NCBI GenBank assembly: GCA_016839635.1
Contig: JAEOTV010000081.1
Location: 1 to 10,862, forward strand
Direction: 5' to 3'
DNA length: 10,862 bases
Source of the DNA: Promethearchaeota archaeon
Lineage (GTDB): Archaea > Asgardarchaeota > Lokiarchaeia > Sigynarchaeales > SOKP01
This document shows positions 1-9,944 of the stretch, one piece after another; the first letter of the stretch is position 1, and each line of letters begins with the position of its first letter. The translations under genes were made by a program, and so were the position numbers. The notes under the pieces are model-generated. The model made no database searches. It had not been told where the DNA came from and worked only from the letters and a program-made list of their open reading frames with translations.

Positions 1-1274
1 CAATCCTCTCTTTTTATTATATTTAGATGATCGAATTGTCCATATATCCCATTATAATTTACATAAGGGGGATCCATTGGAGCACCAATATTCCTACCAT
101 TAACTCTAAATAAAAGTTTTAGAGCTTCTTGAGATTGGATGCTTGCTATAACCGAACTAACTGTTTGTATTGCAGCGATCTTATTTCCGAGAATATTTTC
201 CATTTCTTCAAATTTGTAGTCTGGACCAAAGGTAGTCTTTATATTTTGTTTCCACTCTTCGAGTTCCTCTTCGTTTAAGGTTTCTCTTTTTTCTTCGGGC
301 AAATTTTCATTAAAGACACGTTCTCTCAATTTTTCTAATTCTATTTGTGCCAATTCCTTTAATTTGAGTACTTCATCATTTAAATTGAGATCTGGTTTAT
401 GCCCATATTTTTTTTCAAACTCTACTTCCGCTTTTATGACACAATGATTTCGATTACGTGGTAGCCCCTTTAAGGTGCATGCTGCGACAAGTTTATCATC
501 AGCAGGAGGGATTGGTACTAAACATCTATAACAAGGAGTTTGATCTAATACTTCTGGAGCATGTTTCCAATCAAAAACCATTTCAATCTCTTTTCGAAAT
601 CTTTGAATCAGAGGTGTAATACTTTCCGCTTTGAGATATTCTATTTCTTCTTCTAATTCTTCAATTCTTTTTTGTGCTTTAAAATAATCAGGATATTCTC
701 TTTCTGCTATTTCCCATAGTCTTGCCTGGACTAAATTCTCAATTTCTATCTCTTTATTTTTATATTTTAATTCGGATCCTTCAGGAATTACAATCTGTAC
801 ATGACCTTCGAATCCTACTGTCCCACCTTCTACCATGGGTTTTTTTAGCCGAAGGCATATTTTATTCAAGTCTAGTCTAGCATTAAAATTATCTAGAGCT
901 GCAACTACTACATCTGATTCTTCATATACTGAGATTGGTAATTTTTGAAGTTTTTCAAAATAATGATCGACCTTGAGATAAGGATTCATATCCTTCAATC
1001 TTTCTGCTGCCACTTCAGCCTTAGGACGGCCTTCATCACCAGGTTTAAAAAGCATTTGTCGTGATAAATTGGAGGTTTCAATAGTATCTAGGTCAACCAA
1101 GATCAATTTCCCAATCCCCATAAGAGCGAAATCTTTAGCTATTTCGCAACCCAAGGCACCTACACCAATTATCATTACAGTTCCCTTATCTATTACTTCT
1201 TGATCCCAACCATCAATTAATTGTTGACGGGCATACATTCGCGACTTTACAATATCCTCAGTTTTTTCAGTCAT
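1..1274 (-). CDS. E1-like ubiquitin-activating enzyme, UBA2/UBA3-like (C-terminus cut by window edge)
   Basis: My translation of the minus strand gives 424 complete codons from ATG at 1274, running off the left edge without a stop. An in-frame TAA lies five codons upstream. The fold is ThiF/MoeB/E1 adenylation: a glycine-rich nucleotide loop GVGALG (residues 37-42), acidic D61/D63, the SNLSRQ stretch (68-73) followed by K85, and ALDNFNAR (126-133) with the Mg/ATP aspartate. A zinc pair CYRC (C248, C251) is followed by CTLKGLP, where C266 aligns with the thioester cysteine of UBA1/UBA2/UBA3 (CTLKNFP, CTIRNTP, CTIASMP); H277 and C278 also match UBA2/UBA3. About 98 residues later the adenylation fold resumes (NKIAAIQ...EALKLL, 364-388), so the catalytic-cysteine domain is short, as in UBA3. 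Family role: ATP-dependent adenylation of a ubiquitin-like protein, then thioester transfer to an E2. No ubiquitin, E2 or RING gene is visible here. Between residues 165 and 247 lies an unusual charged insertion. Function at family level is confident; the exact substrate is unknown. Confidence 0.9.
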   Translation of the reverse strand, partial: MTEKTEDIVKSRMYARQQLIDGWDQEVIDKGTVMIIGVGALGCEIAKDFALMGIGKLILVDLDTIETSNLSRQMLFKPGDEGRPKAEVAAERLKDMNPYLKVDHYFEKLQKLPISVYEESDVVVAALDNFNARLDLNKICLRLKKPMVEGGTVGFEGHVQIVIPEGSELKYKNKEIEIENLVQARLWEIAEREYPDYFKAQKRIEELEEEIEYLKAESITPLIQRFRKEIEMVFDWKHAPEVLDQTPCYRCLVPIPPADDKLVAACTLKGLPRNRNHCVIKAEVEFEKKYGHKPDLNLNDEVLKLKELAQIELEKLRERVFNENLPEEKRETLNEEELEEWKQNIKTTFGPDYKFEEMENILGNKIAAIQTVSSVIASIQSQEALKLLFRVNGRNIGAPMDPPYVNYNGIYGQFDHLNIIKRED

Positions 1275-1323
1275 ATTGAACAAATCTTATTTTTTATGAT
1301 TATAATATTATTATTTCAAATTC

Positions 1324-1422: not shown

Positions 1423-4400
1423 TCACTTTTTCTTCTTTTCAGCGGCATCTTTAATCATTTTTTTAAGACTATCGACTTTTTCTCTTTCTTTAGCTTCCTC
1501 TAATTTTTCTTTGAACTGTTTTTTCTCATCTTCCTTTTTCGCAATCTCATCCATGAGTTCTTGTTTAACTTTTATTAAATTTGTCATTTCTTTACGAAAT
1601 TCGCTTGCTTTAGTTTTCACCTTCTTCTTTTGTTCTGATTCTGCTAATTTTTGTTCTTGCCTTCTTTCTTCTATCAAACTTATTACATTATCTGCTAAAT
1701 CACTAACCTCTCCAATAGTCTCTTTTAATTCCGCTTCTTCCTTCTCTCTACGCTTCCGTTCTATAGATCTTTGGTCATCTAATTGTTCTTGAATTTTTTG
1801 GATTCTAGATTCTTCTTTAATAGCTTTTTCTTCTAATAGTCTCGTATTTTTAATTTCAGTTTCGATATATTTTATTTCTTCATTCCAACCAATTTCTTTA
1901 AATTTAGTAATAGCTGAGTTAAAATTTTCATATGCCCTCTCAAAATCATGATATGCTGCCCATTTTTTCCCTGCATCAATAAGTTTTAATCCGTCATCTC
2001 TTATTTTTTCCGTTTGTTGCCTTTTAATAACCAAATCTCTATATTGTCTTTCTTGCTCTCTTTTTAATCTCTCTTGTTCTAATCGTCTTTTTCGTGCTTC
2101 TTCTTGAAACATGGCATACTCATTTTCCCTTTGTAAGCGAGCTTGTTCCTCCAATCGTTTCTTTTCAAAAAAAATAGCTTGTTCTTGTTGCAGATCCTTG
2201 ATTAATGTATCCAAATTTTTAATTTCAGGTTCCCAACCAATATTTTCTGCTAAAATATACCTAGCTTGAACATATAATGAAATTGCATCATTATAGTTAG
2301 GAGTATGTTGTTTCAAATATTTTCCAGCTTCTTCTAGTAGAGAGTATGCTGATTCTCTTACGCTCCTTTTTTCTTGTATCATTTTTTCTCGTTCTTGAAG
2401 AGCTAATTTTTGAGCTTCCTTTTTTTCTCTTTCTTGCCTCCTTCTTTCCTCAATAAGCATAGATAATGTTCTTTCTTCCTCTAGTTTCTCTAACTCTTTT
2501 TGAACTTCTAAATTTTCTAATTCAACTTTTTGATTTTTCAATCTATTGATCTTAAATATCATATTATTAATTGAATCAGTTGGAAATTGTACTTCATTTA
2601 ATATTATTCCTGCTCTTCTATAGCATACTACCGCGTTATCATAATTTTGTTCTTTTAGAAATTTTTCACCTTCATCTAATATCTTGAATGCTTGTTCTTT
2701 TCTCTCTTCTAATCTTGATTTCAATTGTTCCATTTCGAGAATTTTCAAATCTTTTTGTTTTAATCGTTCCTGTTCAAACCTTAAATTTTCTGCTATTTTT
2801 TGTTGATTTTTCCATTCCTCTCGATCTTTTTGTATACTTAACTGTAAGTCTTTTTGTTTTTGTAATTGTTGTTCTCTTTTTTTCTCTTGTACTTTAAGAA
2901 TTAATTCTCTTATAGAATCAGTTGGAAAGGCAATTTCATTCAATATTAATTCAGAGGCGTGATAATATTCGAGAGATTTGTCATATTGTAATTGTTTCAT
3001 ATAAATCTCTGCTTCTTCAAGAAGATTGAAAGCTTCCTCTTTCCTTTTTTCCATATAAGCATGGTATTCTTTTTGATTCTCAATTTCTTTCTGCTTGGCT
3101 TTTAATCTGATATCGTTTATCTTAATATTTTTCGCAATTTTTTGTTGGAATTTATATTCTTCTTGGGCTTGTTGAACTTTCAACTCTAAATTCTTTTGTT
3201 TTTCAATCAAATCTTCCTTTATTATTTCTTGGACCTTATGAATCATTTCTCTAACTGAATTAGTAGGAAACCCAATTTCATTCAACATCAATTCTGCTTG
3301 TCTATATTTTCTATTTGCATTCTCGTATTCCTTTTGATTAAAAGATTGTTCAGCATCGTTTAAAATTTCAAATGCCTCAATTTTACGAGTTTCCTTTATT
3401 TGTTTTATTTTTTCCTGTTTTTGGATTTCAATTTTTTTCGTTCTTAATCTTTTTTGTTCTCTTTGCATATAATCATAAATTTTTTTCTGAAATTGGTCTT
3501 CTTCATATTCTCGTTGCCTTATTGAATCAATTTCTAATTCATCTTTTCTTTCCAGTTCTCTTTTTCTAATTGTAATTAATTCAATATCATCTTGAAGTAG
3601 CTTTAAATAATCACTTGTCCACCCAATTTCAGTTAGTAAATTTTTAGCCTTTTGATAATTTAATAATGCGTTATCATAATTCTTCTGCTGAAGTAAATTA
3701 TAACCTGTATCAATGAGTTTAAAAGCTTCCTTCTCTTTTTCTAAATATTTAGTAGTGAGTAATTCTTTCTTTTGAAATTTTTCTCTTTCTGCTAATGCTT
3801 TAATTTTTTCACTCTCCCGTAAAAGCCTAATTTTTTCCATGAAAATATTATTTTCCTTTTCCTTTTCTATTGCTTGTTTTATAGATTTTTGTTTAATCAA
3901 GTCTTTTTCTCTTTTTTTCTCCTCAATTTCTTGAATAGCTTTATTTATAATTGGGATTTCTTCAATCCATTGAATTTGAGCAAAAATATTTGCAGCACTG
4001 TAGTAAAGTTCAATCGCCTCATCAAATTTACCTGAGGAGATATAATTTTGAGCTTTTTCTAATATACTAAATGCTTCTTTCTTCCTTTTCTCACGATAAG
4101 CAAGTTCTTTTTCTCTTTCTCTAAGTGTGATTTCTTTTTTCTTTAACTCTTCACTTTGTGATTTCATTTCTGTAATAAGTTTTTCTTGAAAAGCGCTCTC
4201 TTGTTTTTCTTTTTCTATAGATGATTCTAATTCTTGTTGTTTCCTAATCTCTGCTTCTCGCTTTTTATTCTCAACAGCAATAATGGAATTTTGAATTAAA
4301 TCGATTTCTTCATCCCATTGAATAGTTCTAAAAATTTTTATTGCTTTTTTATACAAATTGATTGTTTCATCATAATTTCCTAGTTCAATTTGTTTTTGAG

Positions 4401-7400
4401 CCTCTTCAAGCACTTTAAATGCCTTTTCTTTATCTAGTTCTTGGAGGATTCTTAATTCTTCTTCATTCTTCAGTTTCTCTTGTTTTTCTCTCATTTTGGT
4501 TTGTTCAAATTCTATTTTCTTTAGAATTTGCTCTTGAAATAATTCTTCTTCCTGTTCTCTTCTTATTTTTGTTTCAAATTCTTTAAGTTGATTTAAATCC
4601 TGCTCTCTCTTTTTCTCTTGAATTTTTGATATCATTTCTCTAATTGAACCAGTAGGGAAATTAATTTCATTTAATATTAACTCTGCATTGAGGTAATTTT
4701 CAACTGATTTATTGTATTCTCCTTGAGTTAATAGCTTTTGCGCATTATCCAATAGGTTAAACGCTTCTGACTTGCGTTTCTCCATGAATTTTACTAAATC
4801 TACTTTTTTTTGTATTTCAATTTTTTTTTCTTGTAATTTTTTCTTTTCTTTAAGCATATATTCACTAATTTTCTTTTGAAATAAGTCATCCTCTTTTTGA
4901 AGTTTTAATGAGTTCTCAAAATCCTTTTGTTTTTCTCTTTCCTTTTCTTTCTCTCTAATTTTGATTGTTTGAATTGTGTCATTTAATAGTTTTAAGTAAC
5001 GTTCCTCCCATCCAATTTCTTTTAGAAGATCTATAGCTTTTGCATAATTAATTGTAGCGTTATCGAAACTCTCTTCTTCAAAGAATTTATCTGCACTTTT
5101 TATTAGATTAAATGCTTTTTGATGTTTAGCTAAATTTTGGGCAGATAATTGTTTTTGTTTTTCAAATATTTCTTTCTCTTTCAAGAGCTCTTTCTTTTCC
5201 CTTTCATTTTGATACATTACTCGTTCAATAAATGTTCTATCTTGAGCTTCTTTTCTAATTGCTTTCTGTAAAAGCTTCTGTTTATTCAATTCATCTTGTC
5301 TTTTTTTATCCTCAATTGAAAATATTGCTTCTTGGATTATTGGAATTTCTCCAGTCCATTGAATCTGAGCGAAAATATTTGCTACATTATAATAAATTTG
5401 AAGGGCATCATCAAATTTTTTTTGATAGAGGAAATCCTGAGCCTTTTCCAGTAAGTCAAAAGCTTCTTGCTTTTTTCTTTCTCGATAAGCAAGCTCTTTT
5501 TCCTTTTCTCTAAGGACTATTTCTCTTTTTACTAAATTCTGATGTTCAACGTTCATTTCTTTTGCGATACGCTCTTGAAATGCTTTTTCTTGTTTTTCAT
5601 GCTCTAAATCTGCTTGGAATTTAATTTGGTTTTGAATCTCTTTTTCTTTCTTTTTATTTTCAATCTCCACTATTGCGTTTTGAATGAGATTAATTTCATT
5701 CTGCCATTGAGCATCAGCAAAGAAATTAATAGCATATTGAAGTATATCAATAGCTTTATCAAAATTACCTTCTTTAACATTATTTTGTGATTCTTCGAGT
5801 AATTTAAAACCTGCTTTTCTTCTTTCTTTACGGAATTCTGATTCTTTCTCACGTTCCATTAGTTCAATTTTCTTTTTCTTAAGTTGTTCACGTTCTTGTT
5901 GTAAATATTTTGAAATTTGCTTTTGGAACTCTTCCTCTTTTTTTTGTCTGTTAATATTGTCTTTTAATTCTTTCTGTTTAAAGATGTTCTGTTTTCTTTT
6001 TAGTTCTTCAACATCTCTTATAGATTCTTCTATTAATGGAATTTCCTCTGTCCATTGAATCTCAGCAAATAAATTCGCAGCATTTTGATAATTTAAGATT
6101 GTATTATCATAATCACCTCTATTTAAGAAATCTATAGCAGAATCTAAGAATTCAAATGCAACGTTTTTCTTTTGTTCAAATGATTTGATCTCTTCTTCAC
6201 GATCTTTAATAACAATTTCTTTCTTCTTTAAGCGTTCACGTTCTTTATTGATTTGAGTAGTCAGTTGTTTCTGAAATTCTAATTCTTCTCGGTTTCTCTC
6301 TTCTAGTTTCTTTTGATCGTCATATTCTTTAGCAAGTTGCGAGTTTTTTAGCTTTTCCACGTTGGAAATTGTATTTTGAACCATAGATCTATAAGGCTCC
6401 CATCCAGGACCTAAATCTGTGAGGATTGGTAAAGCTTTATGATAAATATTTATAGCTTCGTCAAAATTTTTATCCTTTAGAATATCATCTGCTTTATCTA
6501 ATATATTAAACAGATCTTCTTCTTTCCTTAAGTCACCTCTCCTTTTTTCTTCATAATCTCTTCTTTTTTTGTCTAATTCTTTTGCGGATTCGATATATTG
6601 GTCCTTTTGTTTTTTGTGTATTGAATCTTGAAGTGCATTTAAATCCCTTTGTCTTTGTTCTATTAAATGTTTAGAGATCTTTTCTTTCTTTAGTTTATTT
6701 TTAACATTTTCAATTAAATTTGAAATTGGTTGGATATATGAATCCCATTCTATCGATCGAAAAAGCTGAACTGCTTGATTTAATTTGTCGATAGCATCAT
6801 CATATCTTTTTTCTCTTTCAAGTCTATTACTAATATCTATTAAATTAAAAGCTTTAAGTTGAACCTCTTCCTCATGCCTTTTCTTCGTTTCATATTCAAT
6901 TAATCTTTCTTTTTTCAATTCTGCTTCTTGTTCTAATTTAACTTTCTGTTCTTCAATGTCACTTGTTAACGATACTGGCTTCTTTATTTGATGAACCTCA
7001 AGTTCTAGTTTATCTTTCTTAAGCTTTTCGATTATAATTTGAATTTTTTGAGTCTGAACATCCCAACCAATAGAATCTAATAACTCTACTGCCCGTTCAT
7101 AATTCGTTATTGCATTATCTAATTTCATATCTTTTTCGAACATTTTAGCAGCATCAATATGAGCAAATGCCTCATTTTGTACATTTTCTTCATATTGTTG
7201 CTTGTTTCTAAATTTCTCCAGGACTTCTGCTTTCTCAATACTACTTTTTTGCCCAAACATGCCAACGACTTGTGGTGTCTCATCTGGAACTATTTGGGGA
7301 ACTTCTTCTCTTAATTCAGTTTCTTGTTGTTGATAATGTTGATCAATTTCATGTTGCTCGGCCTCTTTTACGAGCTTATTAATCTTTACTTTTAAATTCT

Positions 7401-7791
7401 CTAACTGGCTTTCGGTCCAACCGGCTTCTACTAATAAATTAATAGCAGATAAGTATTGTTGAATAGAATCTTCAAAAAGACCATCAAACTCCAACTTCTT
7501 GGCTCCTTCTAATATGGTAAAAGCTTGATCCTGTAATTGTTCAATTTGTGCTTTAGTTTGAGTTCGTTGATATAGTGTTTCTTTCTGTACAAAATCTTTT
7601 AATTCCCCAATTCTATCATAAATTTCTTGAATGCGATGCATCAAATATCCACTTTGCTTAAGAAAATCAGCTGCTCTCTGATAATTTGAAATAGCTTCTT
7701 CTATATTTTTCTCTTCTTCAAACTTTTGAGCATTCTCTAGTAATTTTAAAGCTTCTTGCGCTAAATTCTCGGGATTCTCCAATTTAAACAA
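1423..7791 (-). CDS. Giant coiled-coil protein with 18 tandem TPR/MIT-like helical modules (2122 aa)
   Basis: I do not recognise a named family for the whole protein. It has no signal peptide or membrane segment, is dominated by K, E and Q, and contains one cysteine (C1723). Eighteen modules begin near residues 14, 90, 208, 314, 427, 545, 661, 777, 893, 1010, 1124, 1240, 1356, 1473, 1587, 1701, 1815 and 1934. Each starts with a helical hairpin: AF-x-LL-xx-A, then Y/F-D-x-A-I-xx-Y-xx-A, closed by I-x-W or F-P-T. Small and aromatic residues at hairpin positions 8, 20, 24 and 27 match the TPR pattern. A third helix (EIxxIxxxI) makes it resemble an MIT domain. About 60 charged, probably helical residues join modules. 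Residues 161-184 form a proline-containing break; 2028-2122 is a charged helical tail. The assigned start is TTG, with an in-frame TAA five codons upstream; another TTG at codon 4 lies about 10 nt after AAAGGA and is equally possible. A scaffold, filament or tether role is inference only. The mRNA is strongly purine-rich. Confidence 0.93.
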   Translation of the reverse strand: MFKLENPENLAQEALKLLENAQKFEEEKNIEEAISNYQRAADFLKQSGYLMHRIQEIYDRIGELKDFVQKETLYQRTQTKAQIEQLQDQAFTILEGAKKLEFDGLFEDSIQQYLSAINLLVEAGWTESQLENLKVKINKLVKEAEQHEIDQHYQQQETELREEVPQIVPDETPQVVGMFGQKSSIEKAEVLEKFRNKQQYEENVQNEAFAHIDAAKMFEKDMKLDNAITNYERAVELLDSIGWDVQTQKIQIIIEKLKKDKLELEVHQIKKPVSLTSDIEEQKVKLEQEAELKKERLIEYETKKRHEEEVQLKAFNLIDISNRLEREKRYDDAIDKLNQAVQLFRSIEWDSYIQPISNLIENVKNKLKKEKISKHLIEQRQRDLNALQDSIHKKQKDQYIESAKELDKKRRDYEEKRRGDLRKEEDLFNILDKADDILKDKNFDEAINIYHKALPILTDLGPGWEPYRSMVQNTISNVEKLKNSQLAKEYDDQKKLEERNREELEFQKQLTTQINKERERLKKKEIVIKDREEEIKSFEQKKNVAFEFLDSAIDFLNRGDYDNTILNYQNAANLFAEIQWTEEIPLIEESIRDVEELKRKQNIFKQKELKDNINRQKKEEEFQKQISKYLQQEREQLKKKKIELMEREKESEFRKERRKAGFKLLEESQNNVKEGNFDKAIDILQYAINFFADAQWQNEINLIQNAIVEIENKKKEKEIQNQIKFQADLEHEKQEKAFQERIAKEMNVEHQNLVKREIVLREKEKELAYRERKKQEAFDLLEKAQDFLYQKKFDDALQIYYNVANIFAQIQWTGEIPIIQEAIFSIEDKKRQDELNKQKLLQKAIRKEAQDRTFIERVMYQNEREKKELLKEKEIFEKQKQLSAQNLAKHQKAFNLIKSADKFFEEESFDNATINYAKAIDLLKEIGWEERYLKLLNDTIQTIKIREKEKEREKQKDFENSLKLQKEDDLFQKKISEYMLKEKKKLQEKKIEIQKKVDLVKFMEKRKSEAFNLLDNAQKLLTQGEYNKSVENYLNAELILNEINFPTGSIREMISKIQEKKREQDLNQLKEFETKIRREQEEELFQEQILKKIEFEQTKMREKQEKLKNEEELRILQELDKEKAFKVLEEAQKQIELGNYDETINLYKKAIKIFRTIQWDEEIDLIQNSIIAVENKKREAEIRKQQELESSIEKEKQESAFQEKLITEMKSQSEELKKKEITLREREKELAYREKRKKEAFSILEKAQNYISSGKFDEAIELYYSAANIFAQIQWIEEIPIINKAIQEIEEKKREKDLIKQKSIKQAIEKEKENNIFMEKIRLLRESEKIKALAEREKFQKKELLTTKYLEKEKEAFKLIDTGYNLLQQKNYDNALLNYQKAKNLLTEIGWTSDYLKLLQDDIELITIRKRELERKDELEIDSIRQREYEEDQFQKKIYDYMQREQKRLRTKKIEIQKQEKIKQIKETRKIEAFEILNDAEQSFNQKEYENANRKYRQAELMLNEIGFPTNSVREMIHKVQEIIKEDLIEKQKNLELKVQQAQEEYKFQQKIAKNIKINDIRLKAKQKEIENQKEYHAYMEKRKEEAFNLLEEAEIYMKQLQYDKSLEYYHASELILNEIAFPTDSIRELILKVQEKKREQQLQKQKDLQLSIQKDREEWKNQQKIAENLRFEQERLKQKDLKILEMEQLKSRLEERKEQAFKILDEGEKFLKEQNYDNAVVCYRRAGIILNEVQFPTDSINNMIFKINRLKNQKVELENLEVQKELEKLEEERTLSMLIEERRRQEREKKEAQKLALQEREKMIQEKRSVRESAYSLLEEAGKYLKQHTPNYNDAISLYVQARYILAENIGWEPEIKNLDTLIKDLQQEQAIFFEKKRLEEQARLQRENEYAMFQEEARKRRLEQERLKREQERQYRDLVIKRQQTEKIRDDGLKLIDAGKKWAAYHDFERAYENFNSAITKFKEIGWNEEIKYIETEIKNTRLLEEKAIKEESRIQKIQEQLDDQRSIERKRREKEEAELKETIGEVSDLADNVISLIEERRQEQKLAESEQKKKVKTKASEFRKEMTNLIKVKQELMDEIAKKEDEKKQFKEKLEEAKEREKVDSLKKMIKDAAEKKKK
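2350..3033 (-). repeat. Two extra FPT-class modules (15 and 16), 342 bp each
   Basis: Residues 1587-1700 and 1701-1814 are FPT-type modules (AFPTDSIREL and QFPTDSINNM), each 114 codons long. They follow module 14 of the same class, also 114 codons. This indicates expansion of a single-module unit next to the four-module block, a second duplication scale within the gene. Module 16 carries the protein's only cysteine (C1723). Confidence 0.75.
3034..4422 (-). repeat. Super-repeat block, copy 2 (modules 11-14, 463 codons)
   Basis: This block encodes residues 1124-1586 and repeats the order QW, QW, GW (YLKLL), FPT (REMI) without any net insertion or deletion relative to copy 1. Shared stretches include ANIFAQIQW (812 versus 1275 at the tryptophan), KELAYRE, LTEIGW/LKEIGW and the linker FQKKI. 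It directly abuts copy 1, as expected for a tandem duplication of a 1389-bp unit. Confidence 0.85.
4423..5811 (-). repeat. Super-repeat block, copy 1 (modules 7-10, 463 codons)
   Basis: This block encodes residues 661-1123 with module order QW (EINLIQ), QW (EIPIIQ), GW (YLKLL), FPT (SIREMI). Every module start has its counterpart exactly 463 codons further on in the second copy: 661/1124, 777/1240, 893/1356 and 1010/1473. DNA similarity is visible too: the A/T-rich stretch around 5358-5380 matches 3969-3991 with few changes at a distance of 1389 bp. The copies are diverged, so the duplication is not recent. Confidence 0.85.
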
Positions 7792-7988: not shown

Positions 7989-9944
7989 ATGGAGATAAAA
8001 GATAATAGCTTCCTCATAGATTTTGAACCAATTTCAAGAAGGTTATCTGTTTCAAAAGAGAGCTCTATTTACGAAATATTGACTGAAATAAATATACCTA
8101 TTAGAACTATCTGTGGAGGATTAGGAAAATGTGGAAAATGTAAAATTTTAGTTCAAAAAGGACATAAATATCTGAATTCCCCTACCAATATTGAAAGAAA
8201 TCTTATATCCGAAACAGAAATTCAAAATGGATGGCGCTTAGCATGTGAAACTAGAACTAAAATAAATAATAATATACAAAAAATTGATGATAAAACACCT
8301 CAGATTAGGATTTTTCTGCCTAATCAATTATTACTTGAGGATTTTAAGATTCTTACGTCAGGTATTAGTAAAGTTATAACATTACAACCAACCATCAAAA
8401 AGCTTTATTTAGAAGTAATAAAACCATCATTAGAGGAACCGAATGCTGATTTTGAAAGAATAGAAAAAGCAATTATCCCTAAAATACAAAAGTTGAAGAA
8501 AGGTAATAAGATCGATATTGAATTTAATATTTTGAAAAAGATCCCTAATATTCTTAGAAAAAACAATCATAAGATCACATTAGTTTTATGGAATAATAGT
8601 AATATAATTGCTTGTGAGCCTGGTAATACGGTTGAGAGCAATTTTGGTATTGCTTTTGACATTGGTACTACTACAATTGTAGGGTATCTATTAAATTTGA
8701 ATAATGGTAAAATTTATGCTGTTGATTCAAAATTAAATAGTCAAACCGCCTATGGGGAGGATTTGATAACAAGGTTAACTTTTATTAAAGAAAATAAAGA
8801 AAATCTTAGTAAATTAAATTCTACAATAATAAGTGATTTGAATGAGATTATTTCAAACTTATGTCAACAAGCAAATATCAAACCTTTTCATGTGTATGAA
8901 GTTGCAGTTGTAGGAAACTCTGTTATGCACCACATTTTTCTAAGTATAGATCCTGTGAACATTGGATTGAGTCCCTTTATTCCCGTTATTCAAAGAGATC
9001 TTAATGTTAAAGCAAAGGACTTGGGACTTAAGATCTCTAATCATGGGAATGTTTATGCTGCACCTGTTATTGCAGGATTTGTGGGAGCCGATACTATTGG
9101 TGTAATCCTCTCTTCAAAAATTTATAATGAAAAACCACTTACATTAGCAATAGATATTGGCACTAATGGCGAAATTATAATTGGTAATCGAGATAATTTA
9201 ATTGTTGGTTCTTGTGCGGCAGGATCTGCTTTAGAGGGTGCACATATCGATGATGGAATGAGAGCTGCTGCAGGTGCTATAGATACTATTAAAATTGATC
9301 CAATAAATTTAGATGTATCTTATACCACAATCAAAAATAAGAAACCAATAGGTATATGTGGATCTGGGTTAGTTGATGGAATAGCAGAGATGTTAAAATC
9401 GAAAATTATAACAAGAAGTGGCAAAATCAATCAAGAACTAGTTGATCATGAAAGATTTATTAAAAATGATAAAAAAATAAAATTCATTATTGCTAATAAA
9501 GAAGAAACTTCTATAGATAAGGAAATTTCAATTAGTCAAAGTGATATTCGCCAAATTCAAATGGCAAAAGCAGCATTCTATTCTGGAATGAGAATTATTT
9601 TGAATCATTTAAGTAAAAATCCTCGTGTTGAGCAAATCTTCTTAGCAGGAGCTTTTGGGAATTATATTAACGCCCAAAATGCTAAATTTATAGGAATGAT
9701 CCCCGACATTCCTAATGATAAAATTTTTCAAATAGGAAATGCGGCTGGGATTGGAGCACAACACTGTTTATTAAATAAGGATTTAAGAAATAAAGCGAAA
9801 ACCCTTTTAAGCAAAATAAAATATGTTGAAATCGCCGTAGAAAAAAAGTTTCAAAAAGAATATGCTGAAGCAATGTATTTTCCTCACTTAAACCTTGATT
9901 TGTTTTCAAATTTACAAGAATATAAGGGTATCCCTAAAAGATAA
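7989..9944 (+). CDS. RACo-type ASKHA protein: [2Fe-2S] ATP-dependent reductive activator of corrinoid proteins
   Basis: The 651-residue product has the layout of RACo/DUF4445 proteins. An N-terminal plant-type [2Fe-2S] domain (about residues 5-95) has cysteines C42, C48, C51 and C86 in a C-x5-C-x2-C-x34-C arrangement. A linker/middle region spans about 100-215. The C-terminal ASKHA ATPase runs from about 218 and shows phosphate loops DIGTTT (224-229) and DIGTNGE (389-395), a glycine-rich ICGSGLVDG (456-464) and AGAFGN (553-558). The tail with EAMYFP (626-631) also fits the family. Characterised members use ATP and a low-potential electron donor to return inactive Co(II) corrinoid to Co(I) in methyl-transfer proteins, as in the Wood-Ljungdahl corrinoid protein or methylotrophic methyltransferases. 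It lacks the C-terminal ferredoxin domain of RamA, so it is RACo-like rather than RamA-like. No corrinoid protein or methyltransferase partner is in view, so its substrate is unknown. ATG at 7989 is the first usable start; upstream ATG/TTG codons stop at once. Confidence 0.92.
   Translation: MEIKDNSFLIDFEPISRRLSVSKESSIYEILTEINIPIRTICGGLGKCGKCKILVQKGHKYLNSPTNIERNLISETEIQNGWRLACETRTKINNNIQKIDDKTPQIRIFLPNQLLLEDFKILTSGISKVITLQPTIKKLYLEVIKPSLEEPNADFERIEKAIIPKIQKLKKGNKIDIEFNILKKIPNILRKNNHKITLVLWNNSNIIACEPGNTVESNFGIAFDIGTTTIVGYLLNLNNGKIYAVDSKLNSQTAYGEDLITRLTFIKENKENLSKLNSTIISDLNEIISNLCQQANIKPFHVYEVAVVGNSVMHHIFLSIDPVNIGLSPFIPVIQRDLNVKAKDLGLKISNHGNVYAAPVIAGFVGADTIGVILSSKIYNEKPLTLAIDIGTNGEIIIGNRDNLIVGSCAAGSALEGAHIDDGMRAAAGAIDTIKIDPINLDVSYTTIKNKKPIGICGSGLVDGIAEMLKSKIITRSGKINQELVDHERFIKNDKKIKFIIANKEETSIDKEISISQSDIRQIQMAKAAFYSGMRIILNHLSKNPRVEQIFLAGAFGNYINAQNAKFIGMIPDIPNDKIFQIGNAAGIGAQHCLLNKDLRNKAKTLLSKIKYVEIAVEKKFQKEYAEAMYFPHLNLDLFSNLQEYKGIPKR

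Follow-up and report, generated by a model that had tools for sequence, protein, structure and literature searches.

The closest described counterparts of the protein reported here are Vps4, LIP5/Vta1 and calpain-7, which carry one or two MIT domains. In PMC9477494, MIT domains are described singly or in tandem, and human MIT domains grip ESCRT-III tails in several ways, including through the helix 1/3 and helix 2/3 grooves. PMC11218997 gives VPS4A V13D as blocking MIM2 binding and L64D as blocking MIM1 binding. For Asgard archaea, PMC7240154 reports binding of the Vps4 MIT domain to ESCRT-III subunits by isothermal titration calorimetry, with the modelled MIM1 contacts of Lokiarchaeota sitting on helices 1 and 2 instead, and Asgard multidomain ESCRT-related proteins with TPR repeats are mentioned by Makarova et al. 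2024 (PMC10936438). In this study, we analysed a window of 10,862 nucleotides (the whole stretch of contig JAEOTV010000081.1 considered here) from a Promethearchaeota archaeon, in which a giant gene encodes 18 MIT-like modules strung on long helices. The giant shares with Vps4, LIP5/Vta1 and calpain-7 the three-helix module, the Pfam family PF04212 and, in modules 1 and 2, the tandem arrangement, but it carries 18 modules (4 to 25 across its family) on long helices and shows no enzyme domain among its Pfam matches. MIT itself being already known, 4 to 25 MIT modules on locked helices is a new architecture in the literature searched, and among the matches listed there the giant is not described in titles or opening abstracts on Asgard MIT, TPR or giant proteins, Lokiarchaeota scaffolds or ubiquitin-ESCRT. 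We tentatively read the protein as a multivalent rod of MIT-fold modules that is locked in length, is linked to an E1-E2 pair and has ESCRT-III tails as its likeliest ligands, a reading which we prefer while granting it somewhat less than an even chance. The gene and its parts are laid out as follows.

1423..7791, minus strand: giant MIT-module protein, 2122 codons; 2119 residues from the probable true start, TTG at 7782
7372..7791, minus strand: head, residues 1-140, modules 1 and 2 in tandem, helix 3 of module 1 running into helix 1 of module 2
7177..7371, minus strand: hinge, residues 141-205, with Pro/Gly and a conserved motif around PQVVGMFG
1837..7176, minus strand: rod, residues 206-1985, modules 3-18, repeats of about 116 residues with three-helix core and helical linker (modelled for residues 535-1340)
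1426..1836, minus strand: charged C-terminal tail, residues 1986-2122, last residues KKKK
Anchors of modules 1-9 (Y/F-D-x-A-I core): residues 30, 106, 224, 330, 443, 561, 677, 793, 909
Anchors of modules 10-18 (Y/F-D-x-A-I core): residues 1026, 1140, 1256, 1372, 1489, 1603, 1717, 1833, 1950

The open reading frame opens with TTG, and a second TTG lies three codons further in. A Shine-Dalgarno-like AAAGGA about 10 bases ahead of the second TTG fits this codon better than the first, and the same point is the first residue in 12 of the 13 homologs with printed first residues, the exception (P0013) starting three residues earlier, as the open reading frame of the window does; judged from these sequence features, translation probably starts at 7782. 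Eighteen modules, the number given in a preliminary description of this DNA, were located by the Y/F-D-x-A-I core, and a module profile counts 18 both in the window protein, from whose own 18 modules it was made, and in 60 close homologs among the matches listed. Anchor spacings are 76, 117 and 106 residues, and thereafter 113-119. As also described before, the giant has one cysteine (C1723) and no membrane-type hydrophobic stretch, no 19 residues exceeding a Kyte-Doolittle value of 1.6 (maximum 0.79). Lysine makes up 14% of the protein.

For the whole protein, MIT is the top Pfam family (74.7 bits against a curated cut-off of 30, 6e-21, six stretches), followed by TPR_12 and TPR_1, both above their cut-offs. 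When single modules were scanned at E <= 1, MIT was matched in 10 of 18 and TPR_1 in 7 of 18; module 1 alone reaches 29.1 bits, slightly under the MIT cut-off of 30, and helix 3 lies outside the best MIT stretch. When the module profile was searched against PDB sequences, designed or consensus TPR proteins ranked first, over 23 residues of helices 1-2, and calpain-7, Vps4A and archaeal Vps4 MIT domains stand lower at E 0.003-0.03. By BLAST, the MIT region of Lokiarchaeota Vps4 matches 5 of the 18 modules at E <= 10, best of all module 12, with 30% across 50 residues and an E value of 2e-5, obtained against a single sequence and uncorrected for composition. AlphaFold2 models were obtained for residues 1-155 (model 1, modules 1-2) and residues 535-1340 (model 2, modules 6-12), that is for nine of the 18 modules, and three-helix cores are predicted in all of them, with a mean predicted local distance difference test score (pLDDT) of 93.6 for residues 1-155 and of about 70-90 for modules 6-12. 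These predicted antiparallel bundles superpose on MIT structures, and MIT domains are the best VIA-align fold matches of the modelled modules, level with some TPR proteins and designed bundles. An MIT-like module fold is well supported by the sequence profiles and predicted models taken together. The profile searches that the preliminary description had proposed against MIT, TPR and 14-3-3 families thus place MIT first and TPR next; a 14-3-3 identity was rejected, since no 14-3-3 family is found among the Pfam matches at E <= 1. A true TPR protein was rejected as well, with one helix pair per about 116 residues, bundles set apart by long helices and no superhelical stacking, so that of the likeness to both families suggested at the outset the MIT side is the one retained. 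TPR scaffolds share the helix 1-2 signature Y/FD.AI..Y..A, but the giant has one helix pair per module and no stacking in the model.

The linkers measure 59-64 residues from module 4 onward, which agrees with the charged helical linkers of about 60 residues noted earlier, although this length does not extend to the 22-residue linker between modules 1 and 2, and linkers 2 to 4 contain Pro or Gly, linker 2 being the Pro/Gly hinge. Linkers 5-16 contain 21% E, 20% K and 8% R and are also rich in Q, and Pro and Gly are absent from linkers 5-17 of the window protein. In six of the seven modelled junctions, an unbroken helix runs from helix 3 through the linker into helix 1 of the following module (residues 51-102 in model 1; 50-139, 163-255, 396-488, 514-602 and 626-718 in model 2), the junction between modules 8 and 9 being broken in model 2. 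It is because of this continuous helix that the modules do not stack, and the earlier statement that each module stands alone is borne out as far as stacking is concerned, but not as regards the helices that join them. A sparse hydrophobic stripe is kept in linkers 6-16 at positions -56, -52, -48, -41 and -34 before the next anchor, and its conservation suggests a docking or lateral pairing face. Single alpha-helix (ER/K) linkers are likewise rich in E, K and R and free of Pro or Gly, but the linkers of the giant carry this conserved stripe and recur between modules at fixed lengths.

A protein search returned 218 proteins matching the giant at E <= 1e-3, the window protein included, of which 120 are listed; the module counts, lengths and alignments given here are drawn from these listed matches. 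By profile count they contain 10 to 25 modules, most spacings lying near 116 residues, which confirms that the repeat is more than a chance one, and their organism labels, where given, are Promethearchaeota or subgroups, e.g. Lokiarchaeota, Hermodarchaeota, Hodarchaeota and Thorarchaeota. With the low counts of further Asgard loci, module number in the family ranges from 4 to 25, at a spacing of about 116 residues. Of the 227 Asgard genomes searched, 81 match the family at E <= 1e-3; the giant represents a conserved Asgard family. The 18-module class comprises 61 of the 120 listed proteins, window included (2108-2127 residues), the remainder having other counts (10 to 25) and some being fragments. 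Mean length in the class is 2120 (standard deviation 3.0) at a pairwise identity of 47-89% (median 56%), and most of the alignment is free of gaps.

1462..6474, minus strand: gapless segment, residues 440-2110 (1,671 residues), zero gaps or insertions across 61 members, window included

This count took in the 18-module class, fragments and other module classes being left out; its gaps are confined to the region before residue 300 and the extreme ends, and a single insertion site lies at 439. Across 15 loci including the window, the alignment of the whole giant, 2,138 columns long, shows 7 insertion or deletion (indel) events, and its 1,683 columns from residue 440 onward, where median identity is 57%, show none; in the same comparison, RACo, encoded next to the giant, shows 6 events in 654 columns at 69% identity and the E1 (14 sequences) 4 events in 533 columns at 84% identity. 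The 14-module group (26 sequences) has 32 gap events and the 20-module group (14 sequences) has 14. In both, most gap columns precede residue 300, with a further 22 near residue 900 in the 14-module group and 8 near 1400 in the 20-module group. In a helix, one inserted residue turns everything beyond it by about 100 degrees. The rod is presumably gapless since, along a continuous helix, an added residue would turn all later modules by this angle. The long rod or multivalent scaffold envisaged in the preliminary description is consistent with both the model and this gapless conservation, and 1,671 indel-free residues make the giant an unusually clear case in which to test whether length is under selection.

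4441..5829, minus strand: four-module block A, modules 7-10, compared with block B by pairwise identity
3052..4440, minus strand: four-module block B, modules 11-14, apparent duplicate of block A

The two blocks appear duplicated, with identities between corresponding modules of 53% (8 vs 12), 43% (9 vs 13), 43% (7 vs 11) and 41% (10 vs 14); some pairs outside this pattern are equally close (10 vs 15 46%, 14 vs 15 44%, 6 vs 11 41%). The 14-module homologs cover profile positions of about 1-1070 and 1526-2121, and the stretch they skip (about 1070-1526) agrees with duplication of a four-module block. Scaffold evolution by gain and loss of whole modules is undescribed for archaea in the literature searched.

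A genomic partner that the preliminary description had not mentioned lies directly downstream.

3..1283, minus strand: ubiquitin-type E1 (ThiF), truncated by the window edge, 139 bases downstream of the giant; PF00899 at 5.8e-59

A contig scan yielded 42 giant loci, all titled Lokiarchaeota or Lokiarchaeia, which the two scan patterns used may favour; counts out of 43 add the window. A same-strand downstream ThiF-family E1 is found in 38 of the 43, which is every locus with enough contig, since in the remaining five the contig stops first (L012, L015, L037, L042, and L019 inside a subtilase). The distance between giant and E1 is 35-1,656 bases (median 138) in 25 of these 38 loci, and in the other 13 an opposite-strand subtilase lies between them (553-1,715 bases). 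In human UBA1, the E1 relatives match both adenylation domains and, with no more than 0.9 bits, the stretch that holds the active-site cysteine; a CT[LIV]K-x-[LFM]-P motif, presumably the E1 active site, is present in 32 of the 36 copies longer than 450 residues. An E2 is close by in 30 of the 43 loci, with HPN...C in all 30. By the UBA1-like motif of the E1 and the HPN...C of the E2, the locus qualifies as a putative ubiquitin-type conjugation locus. A ubiquitin gene was also looked for next to the giant. Scanning the window, L001-L042 and four further loci for a C-terminal GG motif gave no convincing match, and a Pfam scan of the complete chromosome G001 showed none near the giant locus. Module proteins also occupy the same slot before an E1 in further Asgard loci, with 4 (L053), 9 (L051, L052) and 14 modules (L049), and at L056 a subtilase and an E1 relative encoded on the opposite strand adjoin a 7-module protein in altered order. 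In a hand tally of 227 Asgard genomes, the E1 is present at >=62% identity in 54 and a giant match below 1e-25 in 54, both together in 48. In five of the six E1-only genomes, the contig stops no more than about 600 bases from the E1 on the side expected for the giant. L069, L070, L072, L073 and L074 are contigs ending near the E1 on that side, and repeats perhaps break assemblies.

For the likely ligands, we considered the positions that correspond to the grooves of VPS4A. The residue aligned to V13 is Leu or Ile in 18 of 18 modules and the one aligned to L64 is Ile in 16, with Tyr in module 1 and Lys in module 2, although both may belong to the core; outside module 2, these positions are aliphatic across the 61 members save for occasional Lys, Thr, Ser, Arg or Phe. 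Such conservation would permit peptide binding by the modules. Hatano et al. 2022 (PMC9192718) report that Lokiarchaeota ubiquitin and ESCRT genes lie in two relatively discrete regions, and since the giant adjoins an E1-E2 pair, it becomes a candidate bridge between them. In G001, the pair beside the giant is distinct from the ubiquitin-E1-E2 cluster at 566-568 kb. This chromosome has three E1-E2 pairs, located at 566-568 kb, 2667 kb and 2863 kb, and a ubiquitin-like gene was found directly beside only one of them.

We propose a model in which a register-locked, long helical rod would present MIT-fold modules every ~11 nm over an extended length of about 170 nm (about 0.2 micrometre), with fold and helices as predicted and the absence of indels as compared. 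The MIT-type helix grooves, one set per module, could hold up to 18 peptide ligands per molecule in fixed geometry, most likely the C-terminal tails of the cell's own ESCRT-III proteins, as with the MIT domain of Vps4. With its gene coupled to an E1-E2 pair, the rod would probably bring ubiquitin or ubiquitin-like conjugation together in one place with ESCRT-III or with ESCRT-III cargo. The two tandem MIT modules at the N-terminus may act as a mobile head on the hinge and the remainder as a stiff ruler, the length of which would alter mainly by whole modules. Taken further, the giant could be the molecular ruler of an archaeal ubiquitin-ESCRT assembly, its length and angular register selected to the single residue and changed mainly by whole MIT modules (4 to 25), possibly an Asgard counterpart of eukaryotic giant scaffold rods; we regard this extended version as unlikely in its full form. 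Asgard archaea are often regarded as close kin of eukaryotes, and here the architecture adjoins a ubiquitin-type E1. If the giant does bind ESCRT-III tails, it would form a physical bridge between the ubiquitin and ESCRT machineries and may thus be a scaffold linking two eukaryote-like machineries.

Several observations weigh against this model. The ESCRT relation suggested earlier is plausible by domain, but it finds no genomic linkage in the one complete Lokiarchaeota genome, G001, where ESCRT-III genes lie at 83 and 624 kb, Vps4 at 84 kb and the giant at 2857 kb. Foldseek ranks several TPR proteins above MIT for residues 535-1340, which is the part of the TPR likeness that persists. L071, the sixth of the E1-only genomes, has E1, HAD and E2 but no giant in the usual place, and at L075-L078 E1 relatives (50-56% identity) occur without a module protein in the stretch examined. 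Loss of the giant may be shared, since four of the six E1-only genomes (G152, G154-G156) have consecutive handles, and shared descent explains much of the co-occurrence of E1 and giant.

Among the alternatives, a spectrin-like rod of the cell skeleton fares best, in which the modules would be joints or spacers without peptide binding and the linkers would pair laterally in dimers or bundles, giving cell shape or supporting protrusions. Spectrin and nesprin rods and bacterial EzrA likewise consist of three-helix units joined by a continuous helix; the locked length fits such a role, and the hydrophobic stripe of linkers 6-16 would suit lateral pairing. The giant differs in its helical linker of about 60 residues between units, in its sequence family and in the absence of an actin-binding or membrane domain from its Pfam matches. 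Its sequence points to MIT, and no spectrin family appears in the Pfam matches at E <= 1; spectrin is not among the fold matches shown either, a non-appearance which excludes nothing. A heptad period was sought in linkers 5-16, where no 3.5-residue peak was found (peak 4.6), and the linkage to E1 would be left unexplained. We consider this explanation unlikely, though a serious competitor to the MIT-fold rod.

More doubtful is the proposal that the lysine-rich rod serves as platform or substrate of the adjoining E1-E2 system, organising or receiving ubiquitin-like modifiers without ESCRT. The downstream E1 at every locus where the contig allows (38 of 38), the frequent E2, the separation of the pair from the ubiquitin cluster of G001 and the lysine content all speak for it, but modification or binding is a proposal only and metabolic neighbours are syntenic as well, so that we hold it to be improbable. 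A TPR-type docking scaffold in co-chaperone style, in which a TPR pair plus a capping helix would make up each module, is very improbable, since tandem stacked pairs are absent from the model, MIT scores higher and the top PDB sequence matches span only positions 19-41 of 73, despite the TPR_12 and TPR_1 scores, the lead of consensus TPR proteins over 23 residues and the Foldseek ranking.

On its other side, the giant is flanked by a divergent gene.

7989..9944, plus strand: RACo/AcsV-like corrinoid activator, divergent from the giant, synteny conserved

RACo is found in 35 of the 43 loci and is probably metabolic in function and unrelated to the giant. A HAD hydrolase occurs in 32, an aspartate kinase in 26 and a Ras/Arf-like GTPase cluster in 29 of them; since these genes recur too, general synteny is high. 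The subtilase (PF00082) lies on the opposite strand directly downstream of the giant in 14 of 43 loci (e.g. L029:17051-18595) and is seen at loci with 14, 20 and 25 modules. At L070, L071 and L072, a protein of 461-465 residues with a weak module match (1e-8 to 1e-9) is located between the HAD hydrolase and the E2. At L059, L060, L061 and L062, two module proteins (615-870 and 637-674 residues) flank a protein of about 320 residues. In L062, the one tested, this protein has matches to the IFT52 GIFT domain (1.3e-12) and to ABC_transp_aux; Sigynarchaeum springense is the name under which the L062 protein is filed.
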